The position numbers and the translations under genes are program-made. From Betaproteobacteria bacterium HGW-Betaproteobacteria-12 (lineage in GTDB: Bacteria; Pseudomonadota; Gammaproteobacteria; Burkholderiales; Rhodocyclaceae), in the NCBI GenBank assembly GCA_002842345.1, contig PHCU01000030.1, positions 1 to 32,961 of the forward strand: DNA of 32,961 nt. The letters are read 5' to 3'. The notes under the pieces are model-generated. The model made no database searches. It had not been told where the DNA came from and was given only the letters and a program-made list of their open reading frames with translations. Shown piece after piece: positions 8,327 to 29,813 of this stretch. Every line of letters begins with the position of its first letter. Position 1 is the stretch's first letter.

Positions 8327-8339
8327 GCCCGGCGCGGCC

Positions 8340-9164: not shown

Positions 9165-9180
9165 GGCGGCTACTCCGGGA

Positions 9181-9696
9181 TCAGGGTTTCAGTTGAAGGG
9201 TGACGTTGCCCAGTTCTTCCAGGCCCTTGCCGCTGGCGCTGCGGGCTTCCTTGGGCGGCCAGGCGAGCGGCAGGCGGACCACTTCGCGGCCGCCGGCTTC
9301 GCGCGAAGCCTCGACGAACAGCGTGTAGTCGCCGGCCGCCAGTTTGTCGATCGGCGCCTTGCCGCCGACGTAGGTCAGGGTATGCAGGCCGGGTGCCCGC
9401 GTCGCGCTGGTCACCGCGTCGAGCGGCACGGCCAGGTCGCGGCCGCCCTTGCGCCACCACTGGCGCAGGTCCTTCAGCCATTTGCTGCCGCCGTTGTCCT
9501 TCTTCTTCTGGTCGTACCACACGGCGAGCTGGGTGACCTGGCCGCCGTCGGCCTTTTCCAGCCACAACGCGATGTAGGGCCGGTGATATTCGGCCACCGG
9601 CAGTTGCGGAATCTCGATCTTGACCGCCAGTTCGGCGGCCAGTGCCGGCCAGGCGGCGACGGCGACAAGGAGAGGGAGAAAGCGACGATGTTTCAT
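9181..9696 (-). CDS. DUF2271 periplasmic protein
   Basis: The 171-residue protein has a signal peptide (MKHRRFLPLL, cleavage near PALAAE). The mature part contains YHRPYIALWLEKADG and a Trp/Lys-rich centre (SKWLKDLRQWWRKGGRDL), followed by GDYTLFVEASREAGGREVVRLPL. This is the DUF2271 pattern, a small beta-sandwich protein of unknown biochemistry that accompanies PepSY and DUF4198 genes in iron-uptake clusters. AGGAAA precedes the ATG. The gene follows the PepSY gene after 35 bases. Confidence 0.85.
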   Translation of the reverse strand: MKHRRFLPLLVAVAAWPALAAELAVKIEIPQLPVAEYHRPYIALWLEKADGGQVTQLAVWYDQKKKDNGGSKWLKDLRQWWRKGGRDLAVPLDAVTSATRAPGLHTLTYVGGKAPIDKLAAGDYTLFVEASREAGGREVVRLPLAWPPKEARSASGKGLEELGNVTLQLKP

Positions 9697-9731
9697 GGGC
9701 GATTTCCTGAGGGGGAGGATTGATTGAGTAA

Positions 9732-10436: not shown

Positions 10437-10539
10437 GGCAACTTGTTCCGGGAAAGTTGGCTGGCGCCCCAAGAGGGCTCGGAATCGCGATGGCGACCGG
10501 GTACCCAGGGGAAATCTGGCTGGCTGAACGGATTATAAC

Positions 10540-14468: not shown

Positions 14469-16676
14469 TCAGTGCGGCTTGCCGGCCGGACGCCAGCGCT
14501 TCAGCAGCAGCGAATTGGACACCACCGAAACCGAGCTCAGGGCCATCGCCGCGCCGGCCACGACCGGATTGAGAAACCCCAGGGCGGCAAGCGGAATGCC
14601 GAGAACATTGTAGATGAAGGCAAAGAACAGGTTCTGTCGAATCTTGCCGAGCGTTGCCGCGGAAAGATCGATGGCGTCGGCCACGGCCAGCAGGTCGTTG
14701 CGGATCAGCGTCAGGTCGGCCGCCTCGATCGCCGCGTCGGAACCGGCACCGATGGCGAAGCCGACATCGGCCGCCGCCAGCGCCGGCGCATCGTTGATGC
14801 CGTCACCGACCATGCCGACCACCGCCCCGCCCTGCTTCAATTCGGCCACCGCAGCGGCCTTGTCGCCGGGCAGGATGCCGGCGCGAAATTCGTCGACACC
14901 CGCTTCGGCGGCGATCGCCGCGGCGGTTGCGGCGTTGTCGCCGGTCAGCATGACGACACGCACGCCGCGCCGGCGCAGGCGCTCGACCGCCAGCCGCGAA
15001 GTCGGCCGCAGGGCATCGGCAATGGCAAACAGTGCCAGGATCGCCGTCCCTTCGGCGAGGCCGATAACGGTCTTGCCGGCCCGCTGCAGTGCCGTCACCG
15101 CCGGATCGTCGCCGACACCGAGCCAGTCCGGCGAACCCAGGCGCAGGGCGCGACCATCGACCGTGCCTTCGACGCCATGCCCCGGCTGCGCCCGAAATCC
15201 GGCTACCGCCGCCAAGGCCGTATCGCCGGCGGCGGCAACGAGGGCGCGCGCCAGCGGGTGTTCGGAATGGTGCTCCAGTGCCGCCGCCAGACGTAGCGCT
15301 TCATCGCGCCCCGCGGCCCGGCTGACGATGTCGGTCACCACCGGCGCCCCCAGCGTCAGCGTGCCGGTCTTGTCGAGGGCCAGCACGGAAATCTTCTCGG
15401 CCCGTTCCAGCGCCTCGGCATTGCGCACCAGGATGCCGGCCCGCGCCCCCTGGCCGGTGCCGACCATGATCGCCGTCGGCGTCGCCAGGCCGAGCGCGCA
15501 CGGACAGGCGATGACCAGCACGGCGACGGCATTGACCAGGGCCTCGGCAAAGGCCCCGCTCTGCCACCACCAGCCGAGCAAGGTGACCAGGGCGATGGCG
15601 CAGACCACCGGCACGAAGATGCCGGAGATGCGGTCGGCCAGCCGCTGCACCGGCGCCTTCGAACCCTGCGCCTCGCCGACCAGGCGGATGATGCCGGCCA
15701 GCAGCGTCTGCTCGCCGACGCCAGTGGCCTTGCAGCGCAGCGCCCCCTGGGCATTGACCGTCGCCGCGAAGACGCGGTCGCCCGGCGCCTTGCCGACCGG
15801 CATGCTCTCGCCGGTGAGCATCGCCTCGTCGATACTCGAGGCGCCGTCGACCACCTCGCCGTCGACCGGCACGCTCTCGCCCGGACGGACCAGGAAGACG
15901 TCGCCCGGCATCAGGCTGTCGACCGCCATCTCGATCCACTGGCCGTCGCGCTCGACGCGCGCCGTCTTCGGCTGCAGGCGGATCAGCGCCTCGATCGCCT
16001 CCGAGGTCCGGGCCTTGGCCCGCGCTTCGAGCAACTTGCCGAGCAGGACCAGGGTGATCACCGCCGCACCGCCCTCGAAATAGACGTGCTGATCGAGTCC
16101 GAACAGCGTGACGACAGTCGAGAAACCCCAGGCCATGCTGGTACCGAGGACGACTAGGACGTCCATGTTGGCGCCGCCGGCACGCAGCGTCTTCCAGGCA
16201 CCATCGTAGAAACGCCAGCCGATCCAGAATTGCACCGGCGTCGCCAGCAGCAGTTGCAGCCAGCGCGACAGTTCGTTCTGATGGCCGTGCTCGCCGAACA
16301 TGAACAGCATCTGGCCGACCAGCGGCAAGGTCAGCGCCACCGAAATCCAGAAGCGCCGGCTTTCGCGCTGATAGGCCAGCAATTTCGCCCGCTTCTCCCG
16401 CTCGCGCGTCCCGGCATCGACCAGGCTGGCGGAAAAGCCCGCCTTGGCCACGGCGGCGATCACTGCCGCCGGCTCGACCACGCCCTCCAGCCGGACGCGG
16501 GCGCGCTCGGCCGCCAGATTGACATTGGCGCGCATCCCCGGCTGACGGTTGAGCACCTTCTCCAGGCGCGTCGAACAGGCGGCGCAGGTCATGCCGCCGA
16601 TGGCAAATTCGACGACCCGGGCGCTCACCGGATCGTCGGCCGGCGCCGGCTGGCTGACAGGAAGAACGGTGTTCAT
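14469..16676 (-). CDS. copA: Copper-exporting P1B-type ATPase CopA
   Basis: The 735-residue protein has one N-terminal HMA domain ([10 protein letters not shown]31 and C34), then membrane helices. It has the actuator motif TGES (288-291), the ion-path CPC motif (391-393, [14 protein letters not shown]), the phosphorylation motif DKTGT (435-439), the nucleotide-domain SEHP histidine and the hinge [13 protein letters not shown] final helix pair carries [12 protein letters not shown] and [15 protein letters not shown], typical of Cu(I) pumps. It exports Cu(I) from the cytoplasm or loads cuproproteins such as cbb3 oxidase. The second ATG (16676) has AGGAG at about 10 bases; the first (16685) lies too close to it. 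A TauE-like membrane protein precedes it by 13 bases and hemN lies further upstream, which fits a cbb3-type maturation role. Confidence 0.94.
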
Positions 16677-16689
16677 GGTCGTCATGCTC

Positions 16690-17349
16690 CTAGTAGCGGA
16701 TCAGCGCCAACAGTCCGTACAGGCCGAAACCGAGGACCAGCAAGCCGGACATGGTCCTGACCACAGGCCGGCGGACAAATTCATTCAAGCGCGAAAAAAG
16801 GATGCCGGCGAGCAACAGATTGGGTAGCGTCCCCAGACCGAAGAGCAGCATCAGCAAGGCACCGCGCCCGGCCGAGCCGGCCGTCAGCGCACTGGCCAGC
16901 GCGCTATAGACCAGGCCGCAGGGCAGCCAGCCCCACAACAGGCCGAGCGGCAGCGCCTGGGCCGGCGTGCGCGCCGGCAGGAAGCGCCGGGTCAGCGGCT
17001 GCAAGCGGCGCCACAAGTGTTGTCCGGCCCGTTCGGTAAAGGCCAGCGCCCGCGTCACGCCAACCAGATAGAGGCCAAGCGCCACCAGCATCAGGTTGGC
17101 CAATAGATAGAGCACCAGGCGAACCGGCATCTGCCCCTCCAGGCTCAGGCTAGCCGCCCCCAGCATTCCGGCCGCCGCACCGGCGGCGGCATAGGAGGCG
17201 ACGCGCCCGGCGTTGTAGGCCAGGTGCATGCTCCAGCGTCCCGGTGCGCCCATCGACAAGGCGCCGACGATACCCCCGCACATGCCGACGCAATGGGTGC
17301 CACCGAGCAGACCGACCAGAAACAGGGCAAGGTAGCCGGAATCAGGCAT
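16690..17349 (-). CDS. TauE/SafE (DsbD-like) membrane protein next to copA
   Basis: The 219-residue protein has about six membrane helices. The first carries [19 protein letters not shown] (H19, C20, C24), the signature of the UreH/DsbD_2-type family. A second conserved motif is [17 protein letters not shown]. These proteins accompany CopA/CcoI ATPases in cbb3 cytochrome oxidase maturation clusters and are believed to handle copper or thiols in the inner membrane. The His/Cys cluster would suit Cu(I) binding. The gene follows hemN after 62 bases containing a hairpin and is 13 bases before copA. Confidence 0.85.
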
Positions 17350-17360
17350 GGCAAGACTTC

Positions 17361-17392
17361 ATGAAAGCAAAGCGCGGAGTTTAACCCGCGCT
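17361..17392 (-). terminator. Probable terminator after hemN
   Basis: A 7-base inverted repeat (AGCGCGG at 17371-17377, CCGCGCT at 17386-17392) with an 8-base loop is followed on the minus strand by TTGCTTTC. It lies in the 62-base gap between hemN and the TauE-like gene. The T-run is imperfect, so read-through into the copper genes is possible. Confidence 0.45.
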
Positions 17393-17411
17393 CCCCTGCC
17401 CTGCACGGCCT

Positions 17412-18815
17412 TCAGATCACCTTGGAGTAGCGCGTGCGCTGACGGTCGGCGCGCAGATAGCGGTCGAAGACCATCGAGATGACGCGGACCAGCATGCGCC
17501 CCGGCGGCAACACGGTGATCCATTCGCGCTCGATCTTGAGCAGGCCGGCCCGTTCCATCTCCTTCATGTCCTCGAGTTCGGCCGCGAAATACTGGTGGAA
17601 ATCGATCAGGTGCGAACTCTCGATGCTCTCGATGGACAGTTCGAAGTGGCACATCAGGGCCTGGATGATCGAACGCCGCAGAATGTCGTCGGCAGTCAGC
17701 TCGATACCGCGGAACACCGGCAGCATCTGGGCATCCAGCCGATCGTAGTATTCGTCCAGGGTCTTGACGTTCTGGCTGTAGGTCGGCCCGACCTTGCTGA
17801 TCGACGAGATGCCGAAGGACAGCATGTCGCAGTCGGCGTAGGTCGAATAGCCCTGGAAATTGCGGTGCAGGCGTCCCTGACGCTGGGCCACGGCCAGTTC
17901 GTCGTCGGGCTTGGCGAAATGGTCCATACCGATGAAGACATAGCCCGCCTCGGTCAGCTTCTTGATCGCCAGCGCCAGGATCTGCAGCTTGGTATCGGCC
18001 GACGGCAGGTCTGGCTCGGCAATGCGGCGCTGCGGCTTGAACAGGCTGGGCATGTGCGCATAGTTATAGATCGACAGGCGCTCGGGATCCATCGCCAGCA
18101 CGCGTTCCAGCGTCCGGTTGAAGCCCATCACCGACTGGTGCGGCAGGCCATAGATCAGGTCGACCGAAATCGACTTGAAGCCATTGGCGCGCGCCGCCTT
18201 GATCACGTCGAAGGTTTCTTCTTCGGTCTGGATGCGGTTGACCGCGACCTGGACCTTCTCGTCGAAATCCTGCACGCCGATGCTCATGCGGTTGAAGCCG
18301 AGCTCGCCGAGCAGGGCCACGGTCGCGTAATCGACCTTGCGCGGATCGACTTCGATCGAATACTCGCCACCGTCGAGCAGCTTGAAATGCTTGCGCGTTT
18401 CGGCCATCAACTGGCGCATCTCGTCGTGCGACAGGAAGGTCGGCGTACCGCCGCCCCAGTGCAGCTGGATCACCTCGTGCTCGCCGTCGCGGCCCTCGAG
18501 GGAAGCGCTCTGCAGGGCCAGCTCCTTGCCCAGGTACTTGAGGTACTTGGCGCTGCGTCCGTGATCCTTGGTGATGATCTTGTTACAGGCGCAGTAATAG
18601 CAGATGGTGTTACAGAAAGGGATGTGGAAGTATAATGAGAGCGGTCGACTGATACCGCCAATGTTGCGCTTGCCCAGCCAGAGCTTGGCGGCCTCCGAGT
18701 CGAAAGCCTCGACGAAGCGATCTGCTGTCGGGTACGAAGTGTAGCGCGGGCCGTTTACATCAAAACGGCGAATGATCTGAGGATCGAAGACGAGGTTTTC
18801 GGTTGAAAAATTCAT
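17412..18815 (-). CDS. hemN: Oxygen-independent coproporphyrinogen III dehydrogenase
   Basis: HemN is a radical SAM enzyme that decarboxylates coproporphyrinogen III to protoporphyrinogen IX without oxygen in haem synthesis. The protein has 467 residues. It carries the iron-sulfur motif HIPFCNTICYYCACNK (C68, C72, C75, with C77 also conserved) and the N-terminal NGPRYTSYPTADRF. The SAM-binding GGGTPTFL and the C-terminal HemN part (CHFELSIESI) are also present. The ATG at 18815 has AGGTG at 9 bases; a GTG at 18827 is possible but overlaps that site. It is divergent from the fnr-type gene, and the FNR box between them is well placed to activate it when oxygen is low. Confidence 0.96.
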   Translation of the reverse strand: MNFSTENLVFDPQIIRRFDVNGPRYTSYPTADRFVEAFDSEAAKLWLGKRNIGGISRPLSLYFHIPFCNTICYYCACNKIITKDHGRSAKYLKYLGKELALQSASLEGRDGEHEVIQLHWGGGTPTFLSHDEMRQLMAETRKHFKLLDGGEYSIEVDPRKVDYATVALLGELGFNRMSIGVQDFDEKVQVAVNRIQTEEETFDVIKAARANGFKSISVDLIYGLPHQSVMGFNRTLERVLAMDPERLSIYNYAHMPSLFKPQRRIAEPDLPSADTKLQILALAIKKLTEAGYVFIGMDHFAKPDDELAVAQRQGRLHRNFQGYSTYADCDMLSFGISSISKVGPTYSQNVKTLDEYYDRLDAQMLPVFRGIELTADDILRRSIIQALMCHFELSIESIESSHLIDFHQYFAAELEDMKEMERAGLLKIEREWITVLPPGRMLVRVISMVFDRYLRADRQRTRYSKVI

Positions 18816-18834
18816 TGGGCATATCACCTGAAGG

Positions 18835-18883: not shown

Positions 18884-18900
18884 GCCAACGCAGGTTGCCA

Positions 18901-19644
18901 ATGCCCCAGACACAGCCGTTGAATCAGGACATCACGCTGTCTTTGATCAAGACAGCGTGCTCTAGTTGCAATCTGCGCGAATTGTGCCTTCCCTTCGGTC
19001 TGAATCTCGAAGAACTTGAGCGTCTCGACGATCTGGTTTCGACCCGGCGCCGGATCAAGCGCGGCGACCACCTGTACCGTGCCGGCGAGGTCTTCGACTC
19101 AATCTACGCGATTCGCAGCGGCTTTTTCAAGACCGACGTGCTGCTCGAAGATGGCCGCGACCAGGTGACCGGCTTCCAGATGGCCGGCGAACTGCTCGGC
19201 CTCGATGGTATCAGCACCGAGCACCATACCTGCAACGCCATCGCCCTGGAAGACAGCGAAATCTGCTCGATCCCCTTCTCGCGCCTGGAAAGCCTGTCGC
19301 GCGAGATCCACACGCTGCAGCATCATTTCCACAAGGTGATGAGCCGGGAAATCGTCCGCGACCATGGCGTCATGATGCTGCTCGGCACGATGCGCGCCGA
19401 GGAGCGACTGGCGGCATTCCTGCTCAACTTGTCGCAACGGTTTACGGCGCGCGGCTTCTCGCATGCCGAGTTCTACCTGCGCATGACGCGCGAGGAAATC
19501 GGCTCCTATCTTGGCCTCAAGCTAGAAACCGTGTCGCGCGCCTTCTCGCGCTTCCAGGAGGAAGGCTACATTGCCGTCCAGCAGAAGCACATCCGTATCC
19601 TCGATGTGAATGGGCTGAAGGCCCTGATGACCCACCGCAACTGA
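18901..19644 (+). CDS. fnr: FNR/ANR-type oxygen-responsive transcription regulator
   Basis: The 247-residue protein has the iron-sulfur ligands of FNR: an N-terminal cluster C20, C23, C29 (ACSSCNLRELC) and a central cysteine C111 (HTCNAIALEDSE). It has a cyclic-nucleotide-type beta roll and a helix-turn-helix with MTREEIGSYLGLKLETVSRAFSRF. The E-x-x-S-R recognition residues match FNR, which reads TTGAT half sites. With oxygen absent the 4Fe-4S dimer binds DNA and activates anaerobic genes. ATG 18901 was preferred to the TTG at 18895. Its own promoter region holds an FNR box shared with hemN, so autoregulation is likely. Confidence 0.95.
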   Translation: MPQTQPLNQDITLSLIKTACSSCNLRELCLPFGLNLEELERLDDLVSTRRRIKRGDHLYRAGEVFDSIYAIRSGFFKTDVLLEDGRDQVTGFQMAGELLGLDGISTEHHTCNAIALEDSEICSIPFSRLESLSREIHTLQHHFHKVMSREIVRDHGVMMLLGTMRAEERLAAFLLNLSQRFTARGFSHAEFYLRMTREEIGSYLGLKLETVSRAFSRFQEEGYIAVQQKHIRILDVNGLKALMTHRN

Positions 19645-19845: not shown

Positions 19846-21993
19846 TCAGAAGGCGTAACGGGCGCTGACCCCGGCCAGCCAGTTGCGATCCGGTGCCGAC
19901 TCGTAATAGCGGCCACTGCCCTCGCCGACGATGACCGAGCCGACATACTGTTTGTCGAAGATATTGTTCAGGCGGACGAAGCCACCCAGATTCACATCGC
20001 CGACTTTGCGATCGATGCCGACGCGCAGATTGGCGATGGCGTAGCCCGGTGCGGCTTTCGCAGTATTCGTATCCTCGACCTCAACCTTGCTGCGGGCCAC
20101 CCCTTCGACCGCCGCATGGAAGCCGCTGGCCGGATGTTTCCAGGCCAGTTCGCCGTACAGGGTTTGCCGGGAAATACCGGGCAGGCGGTTACCCGCATTG
20201 ACCGTCTTGGTGGTTACCGGGAAAGGGGTCGTGAAGGTAAAGGATTCGTCGTACTTGGCATCGAGCAGGGTGTAGGCAATACGGCTGGTCAGGCTGTTAG
20301 CCCAACGGCTGTCGAGGGCCAATTCCAAGCCGCGACGCGTTGTCGGACCAGCATTCTGAAATGCGGCCCGGCCGCCGGTGCTGGAAAGCACGACAATTTC
20401 GTTGTCGGTCTTGACCTGGAACAGGGCCACATCAAGGCGGCTGTTGGCCCCGAGCATGGCCTTCACCCCGATTTCGAAATGCTTGCTGATCGACGGATCA
20501 AGAGAGAAGTTGAAGGAGCCACCGGCGCTCGAATAGAACATCTCGTTGAAGGTCGGCGTCTCGAAGCCGCGCGCCGCACTGGCATACACATTGACCGTGT
20601 CGGTCAGTCGATACAGCGCGGCCAGCGTCGGCGTCGTCTTTTCGTAGGTAACGTGGCCGCTGTCGTCGCCATTGGCCAGATATTCGTCATCGACCTTGAA
20701 CGAAACACGGCTGTGACGCAGGCCGCCGCTGAAAGTCCACTGTTCGCCCTGCCACTCGGCCTGGGCGTACTGATCGAAGCTGCTCACCCGATCTTCTTCC
20801 AGGCGGCGCAGCCGGCCCTTGACGCCGCAGACATTGGCGATGCAGTTGGGCGGCACGCCGGTACCAATGAAATTCTCGAAGCCGCGCCGATCATCGACCG
20901 ATTGTTCGTAATCGACGCCGACCGTCGTTGTCAGCTTGCCGCCAGCCAGCTGATAGCGACCGATCCAGCGTCCCGCCAGCCCGCCGAAATCGCGGTCGAA
21001 ATCGATAACGCCGCCGGATTGGCGCGCATTGGCCTGGGTGGCGACAGGAATCGACTGATACTGGATGGTCGAACGCTGTCCGGCATAAGCAGAAAGCTGC
21101 ACGGCGTGGTCGCCAATGCGGTGCTCGTATGTAGCGCCACCCTGCGTATGCTCGATGGTTTTCCGGGTATTGAAGGCCAAGGCCGGGAAATACCCCCTCG
21201 CCGCATCGAAGGCAACGCCCTTGGGGTCGGCCTTGAATTCATTCCAGCTCAGGCCCTGCGGATCGTCGGCCTTCTGCTTGAAGGTATTGGCCAGCAGCGT
21301 CAGCTTGCCGTCCTGGCTCGGGCGGAAGGTCAGCTTGGCCATGGTCTGGTCGCGCTCGGACTTGCTGTGATCGCGATAGCCATCGGTCGAAAAACGCGAA
21401 GCGTCGATCAGGTAACCGATGCCTCCGACCTCGCCCTGGGCGCTGACATCGGCCTTCCAGCTGTCGTAGCTGCCAGCGGCGAAACGACCTTCGACGCTCG
21501 GCCGGCCCTGGCCATCCGGCGTAAACATCTGGATGACGCCGCCGGCATGGTTGCCGTAAATCGAGGACAAGGGGCCGCGCATCACTTCGATGCGCTCGGC
21601 GCGATCGAGGTTGAAGGTCGCCGCCTGCCCCTGGCCGTCCGGCATCGAGGCCGGAATGCCGTCGGCGATCAGGCGGATGCCGCGCACGCCGAAGGCCGAG
21701 CGGGCGCCGAAGCCGCGTGAGGAAATCTGCAGATCCTGCGCATAGTTCTGGCGATTCTGCACATTGATCCCGGGCACGCCGGCCAAGGCCTCCGAAACAT
21801 TGACCCGCGCCTGACCAGCGCCGATGCGCGCCGCATCGACGACATCGACCGCCGCCGGCAGGTCGAAGCTGCTGTGTTCGACCCGGCTGCCGCTAACGAC
21901 CACCGAATCGAGGGTCAGGGCACCCTCGGCGATGGCGAGACAGGGAAAAGCAGCAGCGAGCAGGACAACGAGGCGTTTTGGGGCGTGTTTCAT
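19846..21993 (-). CDS. pqqU: TonB-dependent PQQ receptor PqqU (YncD-like)
   Basis: The 715-residue protein has a signal peptide ending CLAIAEG, a plug domain and a barrel ending in SARYAF. Long stretches closely match E. coli YncD by memory: VPGINVQNRQNYAQDLQIS, RGIRLIADGIPASMPDGQGQ, IEVMRGPLSSIYGNHAGGV, GYRDHSKS, NNIFDKQYVGSVIV and GRYYESAPDRN. YncD was shown to import the redox cofactor pyrroloquinoline quinone through the outer membrane and renamed PqqU. Here the gene is the last of the pqq run, 25 bases behind pqqD, which independently supports the call. A cell that makes PQQ and also has the importer may recapture cofactor lost to the medium. The ATG at 21993 starts the signal peptide; longer in-frame readings run into pqqD. 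Confidence 0.9.
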   Translation of the reverse strand: MKHAPKRLVVLLAAAFPCLAIAEGALTLDSVVVSGSRVEHSSFDLPAAVDVVDAARIGAGQARVNVSEALAGVPGINVQNRQNYAQDLQISSRGFGARSAFGVRGIRLIADGIPASMPDGQGQAATFNLDRAERIEVMRGPLSSIYGNHAGGVIQMFTPDGQGRPSVEGRFAAGSYDSWKADVSAQGEVGGIGYLIDASRFSTDGYRDHSKSERDQTMAKLTFRPSQDGKLTLLANTFKQKADDPQGLSWNEFKADPKGVAFDAARGYFPALAFNTRKTIEHTQGGATYEHRIGDHAVQLSAYAGQRSTIQYQSIPVATQANARQSGGVIDFDRDFGGLAGRWIGRYQLAGGKLTTTVGVDYEQSVDDRRGFENFIGTGVPPNCIANVCGVKGRLRRLEEDRVSSFDQYAQAEWQGEQWTFSGGLRHSRVSFKVDDEYLANGDDSGHVTYEKTTPTLAALYRLTDTVNVYASAARGFETPTFNEMFYSSAGGSFNFSLDPSISKHFEIGVKAMLGANSRLDVALFQVKTDNEIVVLSSTGGRAAFQNAGPTTRRGLELALDSRWANSLTSRIAYTLLDAKYDESFTFTTPFPVTTKTVNAGNRLPGISRQTLYGELAWKHPASGFHAAVEGVARSKVEVEDTNTAKAAPGYAIANLRVGIDRKVGDVNLGGFVRLNNIFDKQYVGSVIVGEGSGRYYESAPDRNWLAGVSARYAF

Positions 21994-22018
21994 GATGTTC
22001 CAGAGATTAAATGCGGGA

Positions 22019-22282
22019 TCAGGCGGGCAGCAGCCAGCCCTTATCGTAAGCCATGGCCAGGAAGGCATCGGCATCGCGGGCGATGGCCTCGGGCTGACCC
22101 GGAAAGGTCAGATCGAGATCGGCGACGATGTCGTCGGCGGTGCGCTGGCCGTCACAGCGCTTGAGGATTTCAGCGGCGGCCGGGTTGAGTTTGATCAGGC
22201 CTTCCGGGTAGAGCAGGATGTGCGCATCCTGGCTGGCTTCCCAGCGGAAGACGTAGTGCGGATTGAGCTGCGGGCGGTTCAT
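22019..22282 (-). CDS. pqqD: PQQ peptide chaperone PqqD
   Basis: PqqD binds the PqqA peptide and presents it to the radical SAM enzyme PqqE. The 87-residue protein has normal length, with PHYVFRWEASQDAHILLYPEG, then LIKLNPAAAEILKRCDG and TADDIVADL, the winged-helix pattern of the RRE-type peptide-binding domain. GGAG lies 6 bases before the ATG. It follows pqqA after 48 bases that contain a strong hairpin. PqqE, its partner, is encoded 6 kb away in a separate run. Confidence 0.95.
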   Translation of the reverse strand: MNRPQLNPHYVFRWEASQDAHILLYPEGLIKLNPAAAEILKRCDGQRTADDIVADLDLTFPGQPEAIARDADAFLAMAYDKGWLLPA

Positions 22283-22330: not shown

Positions 22331-22405
22331 TTAACGCACGTAGACGTAGGCGGTGACTTCGAAGCCGAGGCGGATTTCGCAGTAAGCCGGGGTTTGCCAG
22401 TTCAT
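22331..22405 (-). CDS. pqqA: PQQ precursor peptide PqqA (24 residues)
   Basis: This very short gene encodes the ribosomal peptide from which PQQ is made. The peptide starts MNWQTPAY and has the conserved core RLGFEVTAYVYVR. E16 and Y20 stand in the E-x-x-x-Y spacing whose side chains PqqE joins to form the PQQ skeleton. The length (24) and position of the pair match known PqqA peptides such as the Klebsiella one (R-L-G-L-E-V-T-L-Y). AGGAG precedes the ATG at 7 bases. It is the third gene of the run rather than the first, and hairpins lie on both sides. Confidence 0.95.
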   Translation of the reverse strand: MNWQTPAYCEIRLGFEVTAYVYVR

Positions 22406-22503: not shown

Positions 22504-22520
22504 CTCATGAAAATCATGAG
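22504..22520 (-). repeat. Palindromic hairpin over the pqqC stop codon
   Basis: CTCATGA and TCATGAG are exact inverted arms around a 3-base loop. One arm contains the pqqC TGA. A second inverted repeat, GGCCT/AGGCC (22485-22489 and 22500-22504), follows directly. Together they could mark a processing or attenuation point before pqqA. Confidence 0.45.
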
Positions 22521-23263
22521 ACCTTGGCCATCGGCGTATAGGCACCCCAGCCTTCGATGTGCACCGGGCAGTAGGCGAGCAGCATCGAATCGAGCATCGA
22601 CCAGAGCAGATCGAGCTTGAACTGCAGGATCTCCAGCACCCGCTCCTGCTGCTCGCGGGTGGTGAAGTGGCCGAGCGTGACGCGCAGGCCGTTGATCACG
22701 TCGCGCGGCGCCTCGGTCAGGCGGCGCTGGAAATAGTCGTAGCCCTCCGGCTCGATCCACGGGTAATGGGTCGGCCAGTGGTCGAGGCGCGACTTGTGGA
22801 TGGTCGGCGCGAACAACTCGGTCAGCGACGAGGCGGCAGCTTCCTGCCACGGGCTGTGGCGGGCGAAATTGATGTAGGCGTCGACGGCGAAACGGACACC
22901 GGGCAACACCAGTTCCTGCGAGACGATCTGCTCGCGGGTCAGGCCGACCGCCTCGCCGAGGCGAATCCAGGCCTCGATGCCGCCAGCCTCGCCGCCGTAG
23001 CCGTCGTGGTCGAGAATGCGCTGCACCCAGTGCCGGCGGACTTCGCGCTCCGGGCAGTTGGCCATGATCGCCGCGTCCTTGATCGGAATGCTGATCTGGT
23101 AGTAGTAGCGGTTGGCCACCCAGGCCTGCAACTGCTCGCGGCTGCATTTGCCCTCGTGCATCATCATCTGGAAGGGGTGGTAGATGTGGTAGCTGACGCT
23201 CTTGGCGCGCAGCTTGGCTTCGAATTCCTCGGGCGTCCATGCCTGAAGTTCGTTCATTTTCAT
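22514..23263 (-). CDS. pqqC: Pyrroloquinoline-quinone synthase PqqC
   Basis: PqqC is the cofactor-free oxidase that carries out the last ring closure and eight-electron oxidation giving PQQ. The 249-residue protein has normal length with the all-helical haem-oxygenase-like pattern: [32 protein letters not shown], which the family conserves in two adjoining blocks, then [37 protein letters not shown] and MLDSMLLAY. Conserved His, Tyr and Arg residues of the active site are present in these blocks. The start overlaps the pqqB stop by 4 bases (ATGA), so the two are translationally coupled. Confidence 0.97.
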
Positions 23264-24186
23264 TGTTTGTCTCCGGTGTCGATCAGCATCCCGTCGTAGG
23301 CCAGTTCAATGCCGGCGCGCGTCAGTTCGGCGCGCTCCGGCGAGTCCTCGTCAAGAATGGGGTTGGTGTTGTTGATGTGGATCAGCACCTTGCGCGGCTT
23401 CTGGTAGCGGCCGAGCAAGGTGATCATGCCGTCCGCCCCGGACTGCGGCAGATGGCCGATGTCGCGGGCGGTCTTGGTGGACAGGCCGAGGCGGATCATC
23501 TCGTCGTCGGTCCAGAAGGTACCGTCGAGCAGCAGGCAGTCGGCGTCGGCCAGATATTCGTCGAGGTGCGGCTCCATGGCGCCGAAGCCGGGGGCATAGA
23601 AGACCTTGCGGCCGGTCGCCGTGTCTTCGATCAACACACCGATGTTGTCGCCGGGATGCGGGTCGTGGCGGTGCGGCGAATACGGCGGTGCCTTGCTGGT
23701 CAGCGGCACCGGCGTGAAGGTAAGGCCCGCCGCCCCGGGAATGTGGAAGGGCGACGGGGGCAAAGCCTGCACCGGCTGCCAGCGCACGGTGCAGAAGTGA
23801 GACAAGACGTTGAAAATCGGATTGCCGGTGCTCAGGTCTTCCTGCACCTGCGGCGTGCACCAGACGTCGAGCGGCTTGCCCTCGCGCAGCATGAACAGGC
23901 CGGTGGTGTGGTCTATCTGGGCATCGATCAGCACCACGCCGACGATGCCCGTATCGCGCAGGCCGCGCCCCGGCTGCAAGGCCGGGTTGGCGCGGATCTG
24001 GCTCAGGATGTCGGGCGAAGCATTGAACAGCACCCAGTCGACGCCGTTGGCGCTGACGGCGATCGACGATTGGGTACGCGGCAGGGCCCGCACACTGCCG
24101 TCGCGCTGACCGGCGCAGTTGCGGCAGTTGCAGTTCCACTGCGGGAATCCGCCGCCGGCGGCGGCACCAAGGACAAGTATTTTCAT
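23260..24186 (-). CDS. pqqB: PQQ biosynthesis protein PqqB
   Basis: PqqB is a metallo-hydrolase-fold protein that acts as a hydroxylase on the Tyr-derived part of the precursor before PqqC. The 308-residue protein begins [19 protein letters not shown], with a structural zinc site C19, C21, C24 (CNCRNC). Other family marks are [67 protein letters not shown] and [11 protein letters not shown]. It is the first gene of the run pqqB-C-A-D-U and faces an unknown gene across a 351-base gap that should hold both promoters. Confidence 0.97.
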
Positions 24187-24537
24187 GACCCCAGTGTGCC
24201 GCGCCAGCCCTCCCCCGCCATCGGGATATTGCTGAAATGCGCCTCATGGTTTTCTGGAGGCGATCAGCGCGGCGGAGCGCACCGTAATTGAACAATGCTG
24301 CAAAGCGCAGCAGGCAGCGGCTGGGCATCGCGGGCCGCCGGCTTTGCCAGCGCCGGCCAAAAAACTCCGCCGACCGCCGTCAGCGGCGCTGATTCGCCGG
24401 ACGCGAAAAATGGAGCGGCCGGTCGCCGACGGCTGGCCGCCGGGCTGGTGCGATTATTGCCAACGTAATAGCGGGTGCCAGTGCGCATCGGCGACGGCAC
24501 ACCCCTACAACAACCTGAACGGGAGACAAACAGCACT
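24187..24537. other. Divergent intergenic region before pqqB and the plus-strand pair
   Basis: This 351-base region between divergent genes has no convincing coding content. It should contain the promoters for pqqBCADU (minus) and for the two unknown plus-strand genes. It has several imperfect GC-rich inverted repeats (for example around 24419-24442). An AT-richer spot lies at 24450-24471 (cgattattgccaacgtaatagcg). No clear sigma-70, sigma-54 or known regulator site could be fixed by eye. Confidence 0.5.
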
Positions 24538-25230
24538 ATGAAAGCAGAGGACTTGCTGCACAAAATGCTTGAAATTCAATCCCCCTGGCAAATCGTCCGC
24601 ATCCGCGAAGACCTGGGGAAGCACCAGATCGACGTCTGGATCGGCCGCCAGACCGGCAAGAGCAGCTGGTTCTTCGGCCACCGGGCAGCCGCCGCCCCCG
24701 AGGACCGCGAGCACGTGTGGCGGCACGTCAATCTCGGCGATCAACGCTGCCTGATCCACGCCGCGCTGGTCGACGACCCGGCGCCGCCGGGCTGGAGCGG
24801 CGAATTGGGAATGCCCTTCAGCCGCGCCCTGGCCCGCCTGATCGCGGCGATGATGCGCGAAGGCATCAAGCTGCAAAGTATCTGCGGCCTGCTCGACCTG
24901 ACCGTCAGCGACCTGTGGAAATTCAAGCACACCCTGGACAACGGCAAGGCCGGCCTGTCCGGCGCGCCGCTGCTGGCGACGGATGAGGCGGGCGGCCCGT
25001 CGGCGGTGCCCGAACCGGATCACCCGGTCTGGGAGCGCCTGCTCGACGGTTCGCTGAATATCGACATCCGCCTGCTCAGCCTGAAGTTCCTGCTCTCCAA
25101 GCTGCGCGAACAGATGCGCCTGATCAGCGATAGCGAAGTCCGCGTCCTCAAGGCCTACGAACTGCAGCGCTACTTTGTCCGTTACGAACGGGCGCTCGGC
25201 CACGAACTCGCCCAACTCGCCGACGCCTGA
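24538..25230 (+). CDS. Unknown protein resembling the N-terminal part of ISL3-family transposases
   Basis: The 230-residue protein is not one I can name. Its first 140 residues follow the layout of the ISL3 transposase N-terminus: SPWQIVRIREDLGKHQIDVW, a turn where transposases have a CPxCG zinc knuckle (here WFFGHR), then REHVWRHVNLGDQRCLIHA. A helix-turn-helix-like part (SICGLLDLTVSDLWKFKHTL) follows. The zinc cysteines are lost and no DDE catalytic domain follows; instead there is a Leu-rich C-terminus (IDIRLLSLKFLLSKLREQMRLI, split by a turn) that could form coiled helices. A domesticated DNA-binding or scaffold protein is possible. ATG 24538 was chosen after GGGAGACAAAC. It is 22 bases before the next gene. 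Confidence 0.7.
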   Translation: MKAEDLLHKMLEIQSPWQIVRIREDLGKHQIDVWIGRQTGKSSWFFGHRAAAAPEDREHVWRHVNLGDQRCLIHAALVDDPAPPGWSGELGMPFSRALARLIAAMMREGIKLQSICGLLDLTVSDLWKFKHTLDNGKAGLSGAPLLATDEAGGPSAVPEPDHPVWERLLDGSLNIDIRLLSLKFLLSKLREQMRLISDSEVRVLKAYELQRYFVRYERALGHELAQLADA

Positions 25231-25252
25231 AGCGCCCATCAAGGAAACAACA

Positions 25253-26242
25253 ATGACAGCCAACACAGGCCTGATGTCCATCGGGCGCGCCGCCGAACTG
25301 ATCGGCCAGGGCAAGTATCTGAATATCGCCGGCGACGAGGATGCGTTGCGCCAGTTGCCCAAGGGCGACTGGATCGGCGGCACCATCCCCTACTTCATGG
25401 CCGACGACGGCGGCACCATCGCCCGCGACCGGGTGTTCGTCCATGAAATCGAAGTCTTCGAGGAGCTGCCCAGCATCCGCCTGCACGACGTCGATTCGCT
25501 GCCGCAGCTCTGTCGCACCGCCCCGGAAAACGGCTACACGATACTGATCGTGCCGGCTTTCGGCCCCTGCCATGGCAGCTTTGCCGAAAATGCGCCGAAC
25601 TACGAAGAGATGTACATGAAGCCGCTGGTCGGCTGGGTCGCCGGCGTCCATCTCGACGATCTCGGCCAGCGCACACCGAAAGTCGTGCTCGGCACCACCG
25701 GCGAATTCTCCGACCAGCACGCGGTGGCCATCGACGTACCGCTGCCGGCCGACAAGTTCGCCCGCATCGACATCATCAATCTGTTTCAGCCCGGCGCTGG
25801 CGCGGCCATTACCTTCGACGCCACCGGCTTTGCCGCCGGCGACTGCCGGATCGGCGGCCAGCCGGCCAATCTGGCCGAGCATCTGCTGGCAGGCGGCATC
25901 GACAGCCGCCTGCCGCTGGTCGCCGACTATTGCGGCGCGGCGATCAATGTCAGCATCAAGGCGATCGACGCCAACGCCCGGCGGGTCGACTTCTACGCCC
26001 CCGTCTTCCCCGGCGTCGAATACCGCATCGCCGCCCCGCTCGGCGATTACGTCAATGCCTTCCAGGCGGCGCTGCCGCGGATCGACGGCGGCCTCACCTT
26101 CTCCTGCAACTGCATCCTCAACTTCCTCTACTCCGGACTGGAAGGCCAGCGCACCGGGCCGATCACCGGGCCGATGACCTTCGGCGAGATCGGCTACCAG
26201 CTGCTCAACCAGACCCTGGTTTATCTGACCGTAGACGGCTGA
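25253..26242 (+). CDS. Conserved-looking protein of unknown function with C-terminal SCNC motif
   Basis: The 329-residue soluble protein starts at an ATG with AAGGAA at 6 bases. It has no signal peptide or membrane helix. It opens with MSIGRAAELIGQGKYLNIAG and GGTIPYFMADDGG. Its last 50 residues carry LTFSCNCILNFLYSGLEG (C285, C287) and then TGPITGPMTFGEIGYQLLNQ. The F-S-C-N followed by a Gly-rich loop and a GEI segment recall the C-terminal part of FIST sensory domains, but the N-terminal half does not obviously fit. It follows the transposase-like gene after 22 bases, so they are likely one unit. Its stop overlaps the convergent PyrD-like gene by 22 bases. Confidence 0.75.
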   Translation: MTANTGLMSIGRAAELIGQGKYLNIAGDEDALRQLPKGDWIGGTIPYFMADDGGTIARDRVFVHEIEVFEELPSIRLHDVDSLPQLCRTAPENGYTILIVPAFGPCHGSFAENAPNYEEMYMKPLVGWVAGVHLDDLGQRTPKVVLGTTGEFSDQHAVAIDVPLPADKFARIDIINLFQPGAGAAITFDATGFAAGDCRIGGQPANLAEHLLAGGIDSRLPLVADYCGAAINVSIKAIDANARRVDFYAPVFPGVEYRIAAPLGDYVNAFQAALPRIDGGLTFSCNCILNFLYSGLEGQRTGPITGPMTFGEIGYQLLNQTLVYLTVDG

Positions 26243-26991
26243 CACGGCGCCTTGCTGCGCTCGCCCCCCGGCGAGCACAGCAGGCTGTCCAGGCAGGCCG
26301 CCCCCTGCTCGACGAACAGCCGATGCACCTGCACGCCGGCGGCGCCGGCCGCCCGTGCCGCGGCGACATCGGCGGCGCTGCGGATGCCGCCGACGGCGAC
26401 CAGTGCCGGGCCGCCGGCCAGTTGCCCGGCCAGTTCGGCCAAGCGCGCGAAGCGCCCGGCCGCCTCGGGCAGAACGACGGTCAGCAGATCGAACCCGGCC
26501 GCGGCGGCGATCTCGGCGGCCGCCGGCAAGGGGTCGCCGACGCCGCCCAGCGGCAGTTTCAACGCCAGCGGCAGATAACGGCCGCTGGCTGCGGCCCGCC
26601 CATCGCGCTGCCCAACCGCCGCCCGGCAGGCCCGTGCCAGCCGGCAGCGGTGTTCCGGCAGCAGAAAACGGCGGTTGGCGGCGGCGCTCAGGTTGAAGCT
26701 CAGGTAATCGGCCACCGGCCACAGCGCCGCCAGGCCGGCCAGCCAGGCGACCGTCAGGCTGTCTTCCGGCAAATCGGCGGGCAGCCCCAAACCGAGGCCG
26801 ACCGCGCCGCCGCGCGATGCCATGCCGCCGGCCAGCGTCGCCGCGACGCTCGCCGCGTGCTCCGGCCACACCGAACCGACCTCGACGCTGCCGAAGCCGT
26901 GCGCCAGCAATTCCGCCGCCCGGCTGCCGTCCTTGTCGATACCGCCGGCTAGGCCGGGCCGGGCGTGCCAGGGAAAAATCCGGCGGCTCAT
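26221..26991 (-). CDS. PyrD-like FMN protein with altered active site
   Basis: The 256-residue protein resembles dihydroorotate dehydrogenase but is about 80 residues shorter than class 2 PyrD. It keeps FMN-type motifs: GLAGGIDKDGSRA, HGFGSVEVGSVWP, LPLALKLPLG and VAVGGIRSAADVAAA followed by GAAGVQVHRLF. Two substrate motifs are changed. The N-R-x-G-F-N-N block is replaced by a Gly-rich ASRGGAVGLGLG, and the N-x-S-S-P-N-T loop reads NLSAAAN, so the class 2 catalytic serine is apparently alanine. It is therefore unlikely to make orotate. It overlaps the upstream SerC-like gene by 4 bases and is the last gene of the pqqE run. Confidence 0.78.
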   Translation of the reverse strand: MSRRIFPWHARPGLAGGIDKDGSRAAELLAHGFGSVEVGSVWPEHAASVAATLAGGMASRGGAVGLGLGLPADLPEDSLTVAWLAGLAALWPVADYLSFNLSAAANRRFLLPEHRCRLARACRAAVGQRDGRAAASGRYLPLALKLPLGGVGDPLPAAAEIAAAAGFDLLTVVLPEAAGRFARLAELAGQLAGGPALVAVGGIRSAADVAAARAAGAAGVQVHRLFVEQGAACLDSLLCSPGGERSKAPCQPSTVR

Positions 26992-28067
26992 CCGTATAAC
27001 CGGGCGAACTCGGCCATGAAGCCGGCCAGCGCCAACGCCCCGGCTTCCGGCATGGCGTTGTAGAGACTGGCGCGCAGCCCGCCGAGCTGGCGGTGGCCGC
27101 GCAGATGGTGCAGGCCGGCGGCCTCGGCCTGACACAGGAAGACCTCGGTCAGCGCCGGGTTGGCCAGATGGAAGCGGATATTGACCGGCGAGCGGTGGCC
27201 GGCCAGCACCGGCGCCACATAGAAGCCGCCACTGGCCTCGATCGCACCATAGACGCGCTCTGCCTTGCGCCGGCTGGCGACAGCCATCGCCGCCAGGCCG
27301 CCGTGTTCGGCGAGCCAGTCGAAAACCAGGGCGGCGACGTGGATGGCCTGCATCGGCGGGGTGTTGACGCAACTGCCCTCGGCCGCCTGGTGGCGATAAG
27401 AAAACGGCGCCGGCAGTTCCGCCGGCGAGCGCTCCAGCAGATCTTCGCGAACGATGACGACAGTCAGGCCGGCCGGCCCGATGTTTTTCTGGGCGCTGGC
27501 ATAGACGACGCCGAATTTCGCCACGTCCAGCGGCGCCATCAGCAAGGACGAGGTGCAATCGGCCACCAGCGGCACCTCACCGCAGTCGGGCAGCGCGGGA
27601 TAGGCGATGCCATCGACCGTCTCGTTGGGCGTGATGTGGCAGTAGGCGCAGTCGGCGGGAAAAGCCCAGCGGCCGGTCGGCGGCGCGGCCAGTGGCTGCT
27701 CGCCGGGGTGGCGGGCGACCACCGTCACCTCGGCCAGCTTGCCGGCCTCGGCCATCGCCCGCCGCGACCAGTAGCCGGAATCGGCATAAGCCGCCCGCCG
27801 GGAAGCGCCGAGCAGGTTCATCGGCAGCAGCGAAAACTGCTGCATGGCGCCGCCGGCCAGGAACAGGATGCGGTAGTCGGCCGGCACGGCCAGCAGTTCG
27901 GCCAGCCGGCAGCGCGCCCGCTCGAGCAGGCTGCGGAAGGCCGGGCCGGTAAACGGCCGCTCGCTGGCGCTGGCGCCGTCGGCACCGCGGCGGAACAGTT
28001 CGTCGGCGGCGCGGGCCAGCACCGCGTCCGGCAGGCGGGCCGGGCCGGCGGCGAAGTTCCAGGCCAT
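26988..28067 (-). CDS. SerC-like PLP aminotransferase with altered substrate site
   Basis: The 359-residue protein aligns along its whole length with phosphoserine aminotransferase. It has NFAAGPARLP, W100 (SGYW) that stacks on PLP, D170 (VADCTSS), the Schiff-base lysine K194 in SAQKNIGPAGLTVVIVRED, and the C-terminal GHRQLGGLRASLYNAMP. The N-terminal substrate motif S-H-R-G of SerC, whose His and Arg bind the phosphate group, is replaced by SERPFTGPAF with a short insertion. A housekeeping SerC would keep it, so a different amino acceptor or donor is likely, perhaps lacking phosphate. The ATG overlaps the stop of the upstream membrane gene by one base, and the stop overlaps the PyrD-like start by 4 bases. 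Confidence 0.82.
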   Translation of the reverse strand: MAWNFAAGPARLPDAVLARAADELFRRGADGASASERPFTGPAFRSLLERARCRLAELLAVPADYRILFLAGGAMQQFSLLPMNLLGASRRAAYADSGYWSRRAMAEAGKLAEVTVVARHPGEQPLAAPPTGRWAFPADCAYCHITPNETVDGIAYPALPDCGEVPLVADCTSSLLMAPLDVAKFGVVYASAQKNIGPAGLTVVIVREDLLERSPAELPAPFSYRHQAAEGSCVNTPPMQAIHVAALVFDWLAEHGGLAAMAVASRRKAERVYGAIEASGGFYVAPVLAGHRSPVNIRFHLANPALTEVFLCQAEAAGLHHLRGHRQLGGLRASLYNAMPEAGALALAGFMAEFARLYG

Positions 28068-28567
28068 CAGCCGAAGAGGAAGCCGCCGTGGCTGCCGGCC
28101 GCCATGAAGAACAGCAGCGGGATCGACAGCATGGTGTTGGTCCGCGACGACAGGTGGGTGATGCGCGAACAACGCAGGCGTTCCGCGACCGGCGCCGGGA
28201 CCAGGCCAAGTACCTTCTTCTGGTGCGGCCAGAGGACGAACCATAGATTGAGCAGCATCAGCGTGCCGATATAGACGCCGACGCCGAGCGGCGCCAGGCT
28301 GCCTTCCAGGCTCAGCGCCCCGGGCAGCCAGCCGCGCTGCCAGAGCATGAAGCAGCCGGCCACCCAGGTGACCACCGCCGCCCAGCGAAAAGTGCCGTGC
28401 TCGCGGTGGATCACCGCCTGCAGCCGCGGGCTGTCGGCCTCGGCCAGATCGCTCGCCGCCAGCGGCTGCCAGCGCGGCCGCTGGACGACGCTGGCGTAGT
28501 TGTGGCCGACCCAGATGATGCCGGCGAGGAAATGCAGCCAGCGGGCCAGCAGTTCGAGGATCTCCAT
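28067..28567 (-). CDS. Urate-oxidase-N-like (PuuD-type) integral membrane protein
   Basis: The 166-residue protein has about four membrane helices: LLARWLHFLAGIIWVGH, WAAVVTWVAGCFMLW, LGVGVYIGTLMLLNLWFVLW and TMLSIPLLFFMAAGSHGGF. This matches the N-terminal membrane domain of urate hydroxylase PuuD, without the cytochrome c domain that PuuD has. Seven histidines (12, 22, 54, 57, 115, 138, 160) lie at or near helix ends and several could hold haem or metal. No purine genes are near, so urate is not an obvious substrate. A membrane redox partner for the pqqE run is a possibility. It starts 4 bases after the small upstream ORF. Confidence 0.75.
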   Translation of the reverse strand: MEILELLARWLHFLAGIIWVGHNYASVVQRPRWQPLAASDLAEADSPRLQAVIHREHGTFRWAAVVTWVAGCFMLWQRGWLPGALSLEGSLAPLGVGVYIGTLMLLNLWFVLWPHQKKVLGLVPAPVAERLRCSRITHLSSRTNTMLSIPLLFFMAAGSHGGFLFG

Positions 28568-28571
28568 CGCC

Positions 28572-28667
28572 TCAGCCGGCCAGCAGGCGCAACAGGCCGA
28601 CCAGCACAGCGGTCAGCAGGATGCCGAGGCCGATGGTGGCGAGCGCGCTATCGAAGGGGTGGCCCAC
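28572..28667 (-). CDS. Small single-helix membrane protein (31 residues)
   Basis: A GTG at 28667, directly after the pqqE TGA, opens a 31-codon frame in phase with pqqE and ending 4 bases before the next gene. GGAG inside the end of pqqE stands 6 bases before this GTG, which is ideal spacing. After VGHPFDSALA comes a hydrophobic helix (TIGLGILLTAVLVGLLRLLAG) with one Arg near the cytoplasmic end. Without it the run would have an unexplained 100-base gap between otherwise touching genes. Function is unknown; a subunit of the neighbouring membrane protein is the simplest guess. Confidence 0.6.
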   Translation of the reverse strand: MGHPFDSALATIGLGILLTAVLVGLLRLLAG

Positions 28668-29813
28668 TCAATACTCCATGAAATCGGTGGACACAGCGTT
28701 GGCCGAGCGCTTGACCAGCGGCTTGTGGAAACGCAGGGACTTGGTCGTCACCGCCACCGCATCCTCGATCACATGGTGGTGCGGCGAGCGGCTGCAGGCC
28801 GGATCGGTGTTGTTGGCGTCGCCGGTCAGCAGCAGGGCCTGGCAGCGGCAGCCGCCGAAATCCTTTTCCTTTTCGTCGCAGGAACTGCACGGCTCGGGCA
28901 GCCAGTCGAGGCCGCGGTACTTGCGGAACAGCGGCGACTCGTGCCACAGCCAGGTCAGCGGCTTTTCCCGCACGGAGATGAACTCCAGGCCGGGAATCAC
29001 CCGCGCCTCCTGGCAGGGCATGGCCACGCCGTCCGGCGCCAGGGTCAGGTGGATGGCGCCCCAGCCGTTCATGCAGGCCTTCGGCCGGCCTTCGTAGTAG
29101 TCGGGGATGACGAAATAGATGGTCATCGTCTTGCCCAGCTTGCCCCGCCATTCATTGACCACGCGTTCGGCCTCGCGCACCTGTTCGAGCGTCGGCATCA
29201 ATTCGTCGCGGTTCATCAGCGCCCAGTTGTAGTACTGGATATTGGCGAACTCGATGTACTCGATGCCCAGGTCGGCGGCCCATTCGATCATCTCGGGAAT
29301 CATCGCGATGTTCTGCTTGAACACCGGCATGTTGAGCACCATCGGGAAACCGTGCTTCTTGATCAGCCGCGCCGCTTCCATCTTCAGCGCATGGGCGCGG
29401 GCGCCGACCAGGGCGTCGGTGATTTCCGCCTTGATCGCCTGCACCGACAGCTGGACATGCTTCAGGCCGGCTGCCTTGAGTGCGATCAGCCGCTCCTCGG
29501 TCAGGCCGATGCCGGAGGTGATCAGGTTGGTGTAGAAGCCGATGCTGTCGGCGTACTCGACCAGTTCCTCGAGATCGTCACGGAGCAGCGGCTCGCCGCC
29601 GGTGAAGCCAAGTTGCAGCGCGCCCAGCTCGCGGGCTTCGCGCAATACCTGTTTCCATTCTTCGGTGCTCAGCTCGCGCGAACCGTAATCGTCGAAATCG
29701 AGCGGGTTGTTGCACCAGGAGCATTTCAGCGGGCAGCGGTAAGTCAGTTCGAGCGACAGCCAGAGCGGCTTGCCCTGACCATCCAGACTGACACCACGTT
29801 GTTCTTGCGGCAT
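28668..29813 (-). CDS. pqqE: PqqA peptide cyclase PqqE (radical SAM/SPASM)
   Basis: PqqE joins the Glu and Tyr side chains of PqqA with a carbon-carbon bond, using PqqD as peptide chaperone. The 381-residue protein has the SAM cluster motif YRCPLKCSWCNNP (C27, C31, C34), the GFTGGEPLLRDD loop, and YYNWALMNRDELMPT. A C-terminal SPASM part has C-x-x-C-rich EPCSSCDEKEKDFGGCRCQA and LTGDANNTDPACSRSPHHH for auxiliary clusters. It is the first gene of the second minus-strand run. An AAAGG lies 7 bases before the ATG. It lies 4.5 kb upstream of pqqB, with other genes between; in most genomes pqqE follows pqqD. Confidence 0.97.
   Translation of the reverse strand: MPQEQRGVSLDGQGKPLWLSLELTYRCPLKCSWCNNPLDFDDYGSRELSTEEWKQVLREARELGALQLGFTGGEPLLRDDLEELVEYADSIGFYTNLITSGIGLTEERLIALKAAGLKHVQLSVQAIKAEITDALVGARAHALKMEAARLIKKHGFPMVLNMPVFKQNIAMIPEMIEWAADLGIEYIEFANIQYYNWALMNRDELMPTLEQVREAERVVNEWRGKLGKTMTIYFVIPDYYEGRPKACMNGWGAIHLTLAPDGVAMPCQEARVIPGLEFISVREKPLTWLWHESPLFRKYRGLDWLPEPCSSCDEKEKDFGGCRCQALLLTGDANNTDPACSRSPHHHVIEDAVAVTTKSLRFHKPLVKRSANAVSTDFMEY

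Follow-up and report, generated by a model that had tools for sequence, protein, structure and literature searches.

The 32,961-nucleotide contig PHCU01000030.1 of Betaproteobacteria bacterium HGW-Betaproteobacteria-12 (the window) carries on its minus strand a unit of five closely packed genes headed by pqqE, at positions 26221..29813. We read this unit, with a probability of roughly 60%, as an alternative, O2-independent completion module for pyrroloquinoline quinone (PQQ), or a near relative of PQQ, in facultative anaerobes and denitrifiers. The observations behind this reading are the gene order, its conservation, a peptide type and a PqqE clade of the unit's own, retention of the unit in hosts without pqqB and pqqC, altered sites in the SerC-like and PyrD-like proteins, and an association with heme-d1-family proteins and quinoproteins. 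In what follows G numbers denote genomes (G000 is the window's own) and L numbers denote fetched loci.

Composition and conservation of the unit

The head of the unit, pqqE2 (28668..29813), encodes a radical S-adenosylmethionine (SAM)/SPASM PqqA cyclase of 381 amino acids, with a TIGR02109 score of 492.2 bits against the curated cut-off of 381.35. ORF31 (28572..28667), a 31-codon open reading frame (ORF) for a single-helix membrane protein, has its GTG start immediately 3' of the pqqE stop. It is followed, after a 4-base gap, by the gene of UoxN (28067..28567), a PuuD-N-like membrane protein of 166 amino acids (PF06181, 46 bits, cut-off 26.9). The gene serC2 (26988..28067), which overlaps that of UoxN by 1 base, codes for a SerC-fold pyridoxal phosphate (PLP) protein with a changed substrate site. 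With a 4-base overlap comes pyrDl (26221..26991), coding for a short protein (256 amino acids) with the fold of dihydroorotate dehydrogenase (DHODH) and without the dihydroorotate site. An earlier note, made from the sequence alone, had described this packed set, and all its ORFs were found in place, on the minus strand and with the described gaps and overlaps.

We scanned the GTDB species genomes with a PyrDl alignment and obtained 45 loci; a PyrDl was taken as real at an identity of at least 45%. In all 31 loci with a real PyrDl (two of which end within PyrDl at a contig edge) the five genes, ORF31 included, had the same order on the same strand, so the packing is more than chance. The remaining 14 of the 45 loci showed identities of at most 31% over long stretches, or short matches, and had no pqqE match in the stretch fetched. 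Intergenic gaps did not exceed 5 bases in the four relatives measured. Packing was looser elsewhere: the serC2-pyrDl gap in L037 is up to about 300 bases, and two joints in L046 are about 190-200 bases long. The unit was present in Dechloromonas, Azonexus, Denitromonas, Aromatoleum, Thauera, Herbaspirillum, Noviherbaspirillum, Trinickia, Paraburkholderia, Alicycliphilus and Pseudogulbenkiania, as well as in one record labelled Acidovorax.

Selecting loci by PyrDl biases the set towards complete units; a draw of 150 genomes of the family provided a less biased check. PqqE scored over the cut-off in 39 of these genomes. A strong UoxN match (E<1e-70) was found in 17, each adjoining PqqE. Sixteen of the 17 were inspected and all had the five genes; G112 was seen for pqqE and UoxN only. 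In G119, ORF31 and PyrDl were detected only with nearer queries. The earlier note had proposed that the five genes share a task that is linked to PQQ and lies outside textbook pqqABCDE. Both results bear this out, since the order is not that of one genome alone and every strong UoxN match in the family draw lies beside pqqE. Its wording of a PQQ-linked or PQQ-derived pathway holds as to the link, and the product may be PQQ or a derivative.

PqqE2 clade, peptide type and hosts without pqqB and pqqC

The window also contains pqqB, pqqC, pqqA and pqqD, overlooked in the earlier note, on the same strand and 2.0-4.2 kb past the end of the unit (24186-22019). The first two, pqqB (23260..24186, TIGR02108 430 bits) and pqqC (22514..23263, TIGR02111 364 bits), each occur in one copy in G000. 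Behind them, at least 3.8 kb past the unit, stand pqqA2 (22331..22405, PF08042 40.9 bits, cut-off 21.1), which encodes the 24-amino-acid precursor peptide MNWQTPAYCEIRLGFEVTAYVYVR, and pqqD2 (22019..22282, PF05402 61.4 bits), which encodes the peptide chaperone. The gene of a PqqU-like TonB receptor (19846..22074, minus strand) comes after pqqD and ends 6.4 kb past the unit; its NF041535 score of 666 bits is below the cut-off of 1200. As listed, this ORF overlaps pqqD, and its true start is probably later than the listed one.

In a PqqE tree of 67 rows, the 41 unit rows, with the window's PqqE2 among them, and the row of G108 formed one group (support 98/96), 24 ordinary rows formed a second group (96/84), and the ordinary row L124 stood alone on a very long branch. 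More than one PqqE was present in 16 of the 43 distinct unit genomes and in 6 of the 17 in the family draw; in all six of the latter a separate pqqA and pqqD belong to the unit. The copies of pqqB and pqqC lie beside the ordinary pqqE, away from the unit, in 13 of the 16 genomes, and in G104, G228 and G220 a pqqB/pqqC pair lies near the unit. The ordinary cluster of G104 has only pqqA, pqqD and pqqE visible on its contig.

A FEVTAYVYVR tail was found in 30 of the 55 PqqA collected, all of them from unit loci except that of G108; the other 25 have FEIT[ML]Y, including one second copy in the unit locus L045. Thus 29 of 30 PqqA in unit loci carry the FEVTAYVYVR tail, and the exception is the L045 copy beside a second pqqB/pqqC. 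These counts include near-copies; for many unit loci, no pqqA was seen within the stretch fetched. The window's PqqA ends in GFEVTAYVYVR and has the E-xxx-Y motif.

The O2-free reading draws its strongest new support from G165, where pqqB and pqqC are cleanly absent, and G180 adds a second such lineage; both lineages retain the unit, pqqA2 and pqqD2. For G180, G165, G162 and G136, a search at E<=1 gave no PqqB or PqqC match near the cut-off (best 0.003 for PqqB and 0.09 for PqqC); weak PqqB matches were likewise seen in 10 of 14 control genomes. The assemblies are 99% complete in 10 contigs (G180) and 100% complete in 30 contigs (G165). The gene order in G180 is pqqU, NosR-like, pqqA, pqqD, pqqE2, ORF31, UoxN, serC2, pyrDl.

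We compared the region L129:3600-17000 of G112, where pqqC-pqqB lie at 3131291-3132921, with G165:C15. Positions 71736-74511 matched query 2856-5648 and positions 74681-76394 matched query 7529-9239, so that in G165 the flanks are about 170 bases apart within one contig. The absent part (query 5649-7528) runs from the final pqqC codons across pqqB to just short of hyp251. On one side the gap is bordered by pqqA2, pqqD2 and pqqU, and on the other by hyp251 and DUF6976. At this site pqqB and pqqC are present in both sisters, G112 and G201, and the window has the same gene order; therefore the pair was probably lost in G165. Between G165 and G201, the ratio of nonsynonymous to synonymous substitution rates (dN/dS) was 0.12-0.50 for six genes, pqqE2, UoxN, serC2, pyrDl, pqqA2 and pqqD2 (ORF31 was left out), as pairwise values to which both branches contribute.

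With respect to physiology, we divided the family draw into 17 unit genomes, 22 genomes with pqqE outside a unit only (G108 among them) and 111 others. PF02239, which covers heme-d1 nitrite reductase and its kin, was found in 17/17, 16/22 and 62/111, respectively. The TIGR03075 quinoprotein (alcohol) dehydrogenase was found in 17/17 (including G180, G165, G162 and G136), 22/22 and 25/111. Of the 17 unit rows scanned, three (L037, L085, L087) had a perfect FNR-type box before pqqA2; no such box was present in the 25 rows without the unit, among which are the ordinary clusters of these three genomes.

Proposed chemistry and alternatives

UoxN shares the membrane domain PF06181 with the cytochrome c urate oxidase PuuD and lacks the C-terminal cytochrome c domain, as the PF06181 match is its only Pfam match. 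Its residues H12, H22, H57, H138 and H160 were invariant across 29 rows, and the helix model had a predicted local distance difference test (pLDDT) score of 82. Eight family genomes (L097-L104), without pqqE in the stretch fetched, also encode short membrane proteins of the PF06181 type that share 34-56% identity with UoxN. ORF31 was found between pqqE and UoxN in 31 of 31 loci with 53-73% identity, and H3, P4, D6, S7, A8, T11 and other residues were invariant in five aligned sequences.

SerC2 is homologous to the phosphoserine aminotransferase SerC over the full length and shares with it the PLP lysine, Trp, Asp and GGMR arginine; the PLP lysine and the arginine of GG(M/L)R were retained in 44 of 44 rows (42 distinct). 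In contrast, the His-Arg pair of the SHR motif, which we take to hold the phosphate or side-chain carboxylate in SerC, is replaced by F (44/44) and T, S, A or D (44/44). With the curated SerC models SerC2 scored 396 bits for NF003764 (cut-off 253) and 363.9 bits for TIGR01364, which is under the cut-off of 443.6. A canonical serC, 45% identical to SerC2, is located elsewhere in the host genome.

PyrDl has the fold of class 2 DHODH and passes PF01180 narrowly (29.1 vs. 27 bits), with no single stretch significant. It is under the cut-offs of all nine listed NCBIfam DHODH models (the best score was 54.5 vs. 457 bits). Compared with the 336 amino acids of class 2 PyrD in E. coli, PyrDl is short and lacks the NPKPR, INRxGFNN and GGLSG segments. 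The INRxGFNN motif was found in 0 of 43 PyrDl rows and the catalytic-serine pattern [VI]N[IL]S[SA]P in 1 of 43, not the window's; both are presumably functional sites of class 2 DHODH.

In ordinary PQQ synthesis PqqC carries out the O2-dependent last step, and both nitrogens of the precursor are retained in PQQ. We suggest that PqqE2 with PqqD2, to judge by family membership, would cross-link Glu and Tyr of the dedicated peptide PqqA2, and that a peptidase would release the cross-linked product. UoxN and ORF31 could then replace, at the membrane, the hydroxylation/oxidation by PqqB in a PuuD-like reaction, with oxygen taken from water and electrons passed to the respiratory chain. PyrDl, as a flavoprotein of DHODH descent, and SerC2, with its PLP, may do the ring dehydrogenations that PqqC performs with O2. 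Every chemical step, the cofactor occupancy and PQQ as the product are inferred. The exact step of SerC2 is the weakest part of the mechanism because PQQ keeps both precursor nitrogens.

A number of observations weigh against the O2-independent reading. As for the proteins, an aminotransferase is clearly needed by no PQQ step; PyrDl, without the DHODH catalytic serine and orotate contacts, cannot act just like DHODH; and ORF31 is weakly constrained, given its dN of 0.256 and dS of 0.352 in comparison with L035. The PyrDl match of G119 (L079:11851-12506) shifts frame near the C-terminal end, which may be a sequencing error or a sign of a decaying copy. As for the hosts, the 46 unit handles correspond to 43 distinct genomes (G217=G075, G221=G201 and G233=G136 have identical coordinates), and PqqB and PqqC were each found at E<=1e-30 in 41 of the 46 handles, or 39 of the 43 distinct genomes (in G224 the PqqC match is a fragment cut by a contig edge). 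Since most unit genomes keep both genes, the unit is usually not the sole route. Also, the G108 cluster (L095) belongs to the PqqA2/PqqE2 type and includes pqqB and pqqC, but the four extra genes are missing; this genome has apparently lost the unit. Hosts without pqqB and pqqC might import PQQ, because quinoproteins occur in 25 of the 111 genomes without PqqE over the cut-off; a PqqU-like receptor is present in both G180 and G165. The presence counts, including those behind the PF02239 association (Fisher test, 0.027 for unit vs. pqqE-only genomes and 0.0003 vs. all others), carry no correction for kinship. Finally, the window has no perfect FNR box, and the three loci with such a box belong to one related group only.

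Among the alternatives, the unit could make from PqqA2 a different PQQ-like cofactor, with the PLP enzyme altering the nitrogen pattern and dedicated quinoproteins using the product. The peptide tail and PqqE clade specific to the unit, the extra ordinary PqqE in 16 of 43 genomes, and the intact PLP lysine of SerC2 next to a new substrate pocket would all fit. On the other hand, the E-xxx-Y cross-link motif is unchanged, and PqqE2 is the sole PqqE of G000, a genome with pqqB, pqqC and a quinoprotein, which suggests that PqqA2 and PqqE2 feed ordinary PQQ there. We consider a different cofactor unlikely. Similarly doubtful is a second O2-free branch that begins with PqqA2 and its own radical SAM enzyme, relies on the membrane oxidase, PLP enzyme and flavoprotein as complete substitutes for PqqB and PqqC, and yields a PQQ-like cofactor other than PQQ for quinoprotein dehydrogenases in denitrification.

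The unit could also be an accessory, acting in redox balance, electron supply to PqqE, export or regulation, with PQQ still requiring PqqB and PqqC and the genomes without them scavenging PQQ via PqqU. The location of the PqqU-like receptor beside pqqA2 and pqqD2 in the window and in G165, the quinoproteins of genomes without PqqE over the cut-off and the lack of the unit in G108 speak for such a role. However, a scavenger that had lost pqqB and pqqC would not need pqqA2, pqqD2, pqqE2 and the unit, which are under purifying selection. The pairwise dN/dS gives no date for the loss, and a recent loss with decay still ahead would be compatible with it. We see an accessory role as quite improbable. 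That ordinary copies of serC and pyrD stand beside pqqE by chance and serve serine and pyrimidine synthesis is very hard to believe: the descent from the SerC and PyrD families is clear, but the linkage holds in 31 of 31 loci, the anchoring pair is gone in 44 of 44 SerC2 rows, the orotate-site motifs are absent in 43 of 43 PyrDl rows, and a canonical SerC is encoded elsewhere in the host genome.

Published clusters and neighboring genes

The earlier note called the unit undescribed, which does not hold; neither the cluster nor the O2-free idea is new because Li et al. 2025 (PMC12423496) reports both. They describe the cluster in Hyphomicrobium denitrificans (Hden_0548-0553) and in another five denitrifiers; the genera for which they name pqqAED-puuD-serC-pyrD clusters are Hyphomicrobium, Halomonas, Stutzerimonas, Methylophaga and Azoarcus. 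Citing the likeness to PuuD and PyrD, they find it 'tempting to speculate' on O2-free PQQ synthesis, and they state that Klebsiella and P. aeruginosa, with ordinary pqq genes only, make no PQQ anaerobically. Elsewhere, O2 is stated to be required for PQQ synthesis, and carry-over or outside supply is given as the explanation where PQQ enzymes are used under anoxia (PMC11102522). Within the open-access literature (subscription papers and preprints being outside its scope), we found pqqE, serC and pyrD together only in Li et al. 2025, and we found no test of the O2-free idea in the literature searched. The appearance of the same hypothesis in print on other evidence counts in favour of the O2-independent reading.

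The H. denitrificans cluster, as described, resembles the unit in gene content, denitrifying hosts and proposed O2-free PQQ synthesis; the two are likened by description, not by sequence. Both the window and 31 of 31 relatives have the pqqE, PuuD-N-like, SerC-like and PyrD-like genes of that cluster. The window differs in that pqqA and pqqD lie apart from the unit and G000 has no second, ordinary cluster; pqqA and pqqD within the cluster plus a separate ordinary pqqABCDE were found, for example, in G202, G087, G169 and G204. Section 2.9 of Li et al. 2025 does not mention the 31-codon ORF, the separate peptide and PqqE clade, the hosts without pqqB and pqqC, or the active-site changes. Compared with textbook pqqABCDE, PqqA, PqqD and PqqE are common to both, with scores over the cut-offs; the unit adds four proteins and stands without PqqB and PqqC in two lineages.

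If the O2-independent reading is true, a unit kept by denitrifiers even without pqqB and pqqC would overturn the O2 requirement of PQQ synthesis. There would be a second PQQ chemistry or a new cofactor, with new jobs for descendants of PuuD-N, SerC and PyrD. The species without pqqB and pqqC, unmentioned in the same section 2.9, are a natural test.

Several neighboring genes could be of interest. A gene pair on the plus strand of the window encodes a 251-amino-acid protein without a Pfam match (24475-25230) and a DUF6976 protein (25175-26242; PF22396, 459 bits). DUF6976 was found in 10 of 31 unit loci, in 8 of them accompanied by the 251-amino-acid protein; the pair adjoins pqqB or pqqA in G112, G201 and G165, and is possibly an uncharacterised PQQ-related pair. 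A prolyl-aminopeptidase-like gene (e.g., L034:5226-6131), which is a candidate for the missing PqqF-type peptidase, was located near pqq clusters in 25 of 44 unit loci and 16 of 26 other pqq loci; the window has none at E<=1e-8.

Regulatory genes were seen near the unit, mostly upstream (e.g., L034:3223-5219, L053, L092): 22 of 44 unit loci have a response regulator of the NarL/UvrY type, and 19 of 44 have a histidine kinase. The pqq locus of G180 encodes, directly before pqqA2, a NosR-like membrane flavo/iron-sulfur protein (L092:11769-13985); in G149 the gene of such a protein (L091:16808-18919) is located about 5 kb upstream of the unit. In the window itself, an iron-uptake-like cluster at 4592-10472 (minus strand) includes a Fiu-type TonB receptor (794 bits), a CysJ-like flavodoxin reductase, DUF2271 and PepSY proteins. 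At 14469-18827 (minus strand) a copper-type P-ATPase of 738 amino acids is encoded close to the oxygen-independent coproporphyrinogen oxidase HemN, and a Crp/FNR-type regulator is encoded near these genes on the plus strand (18895-19644).

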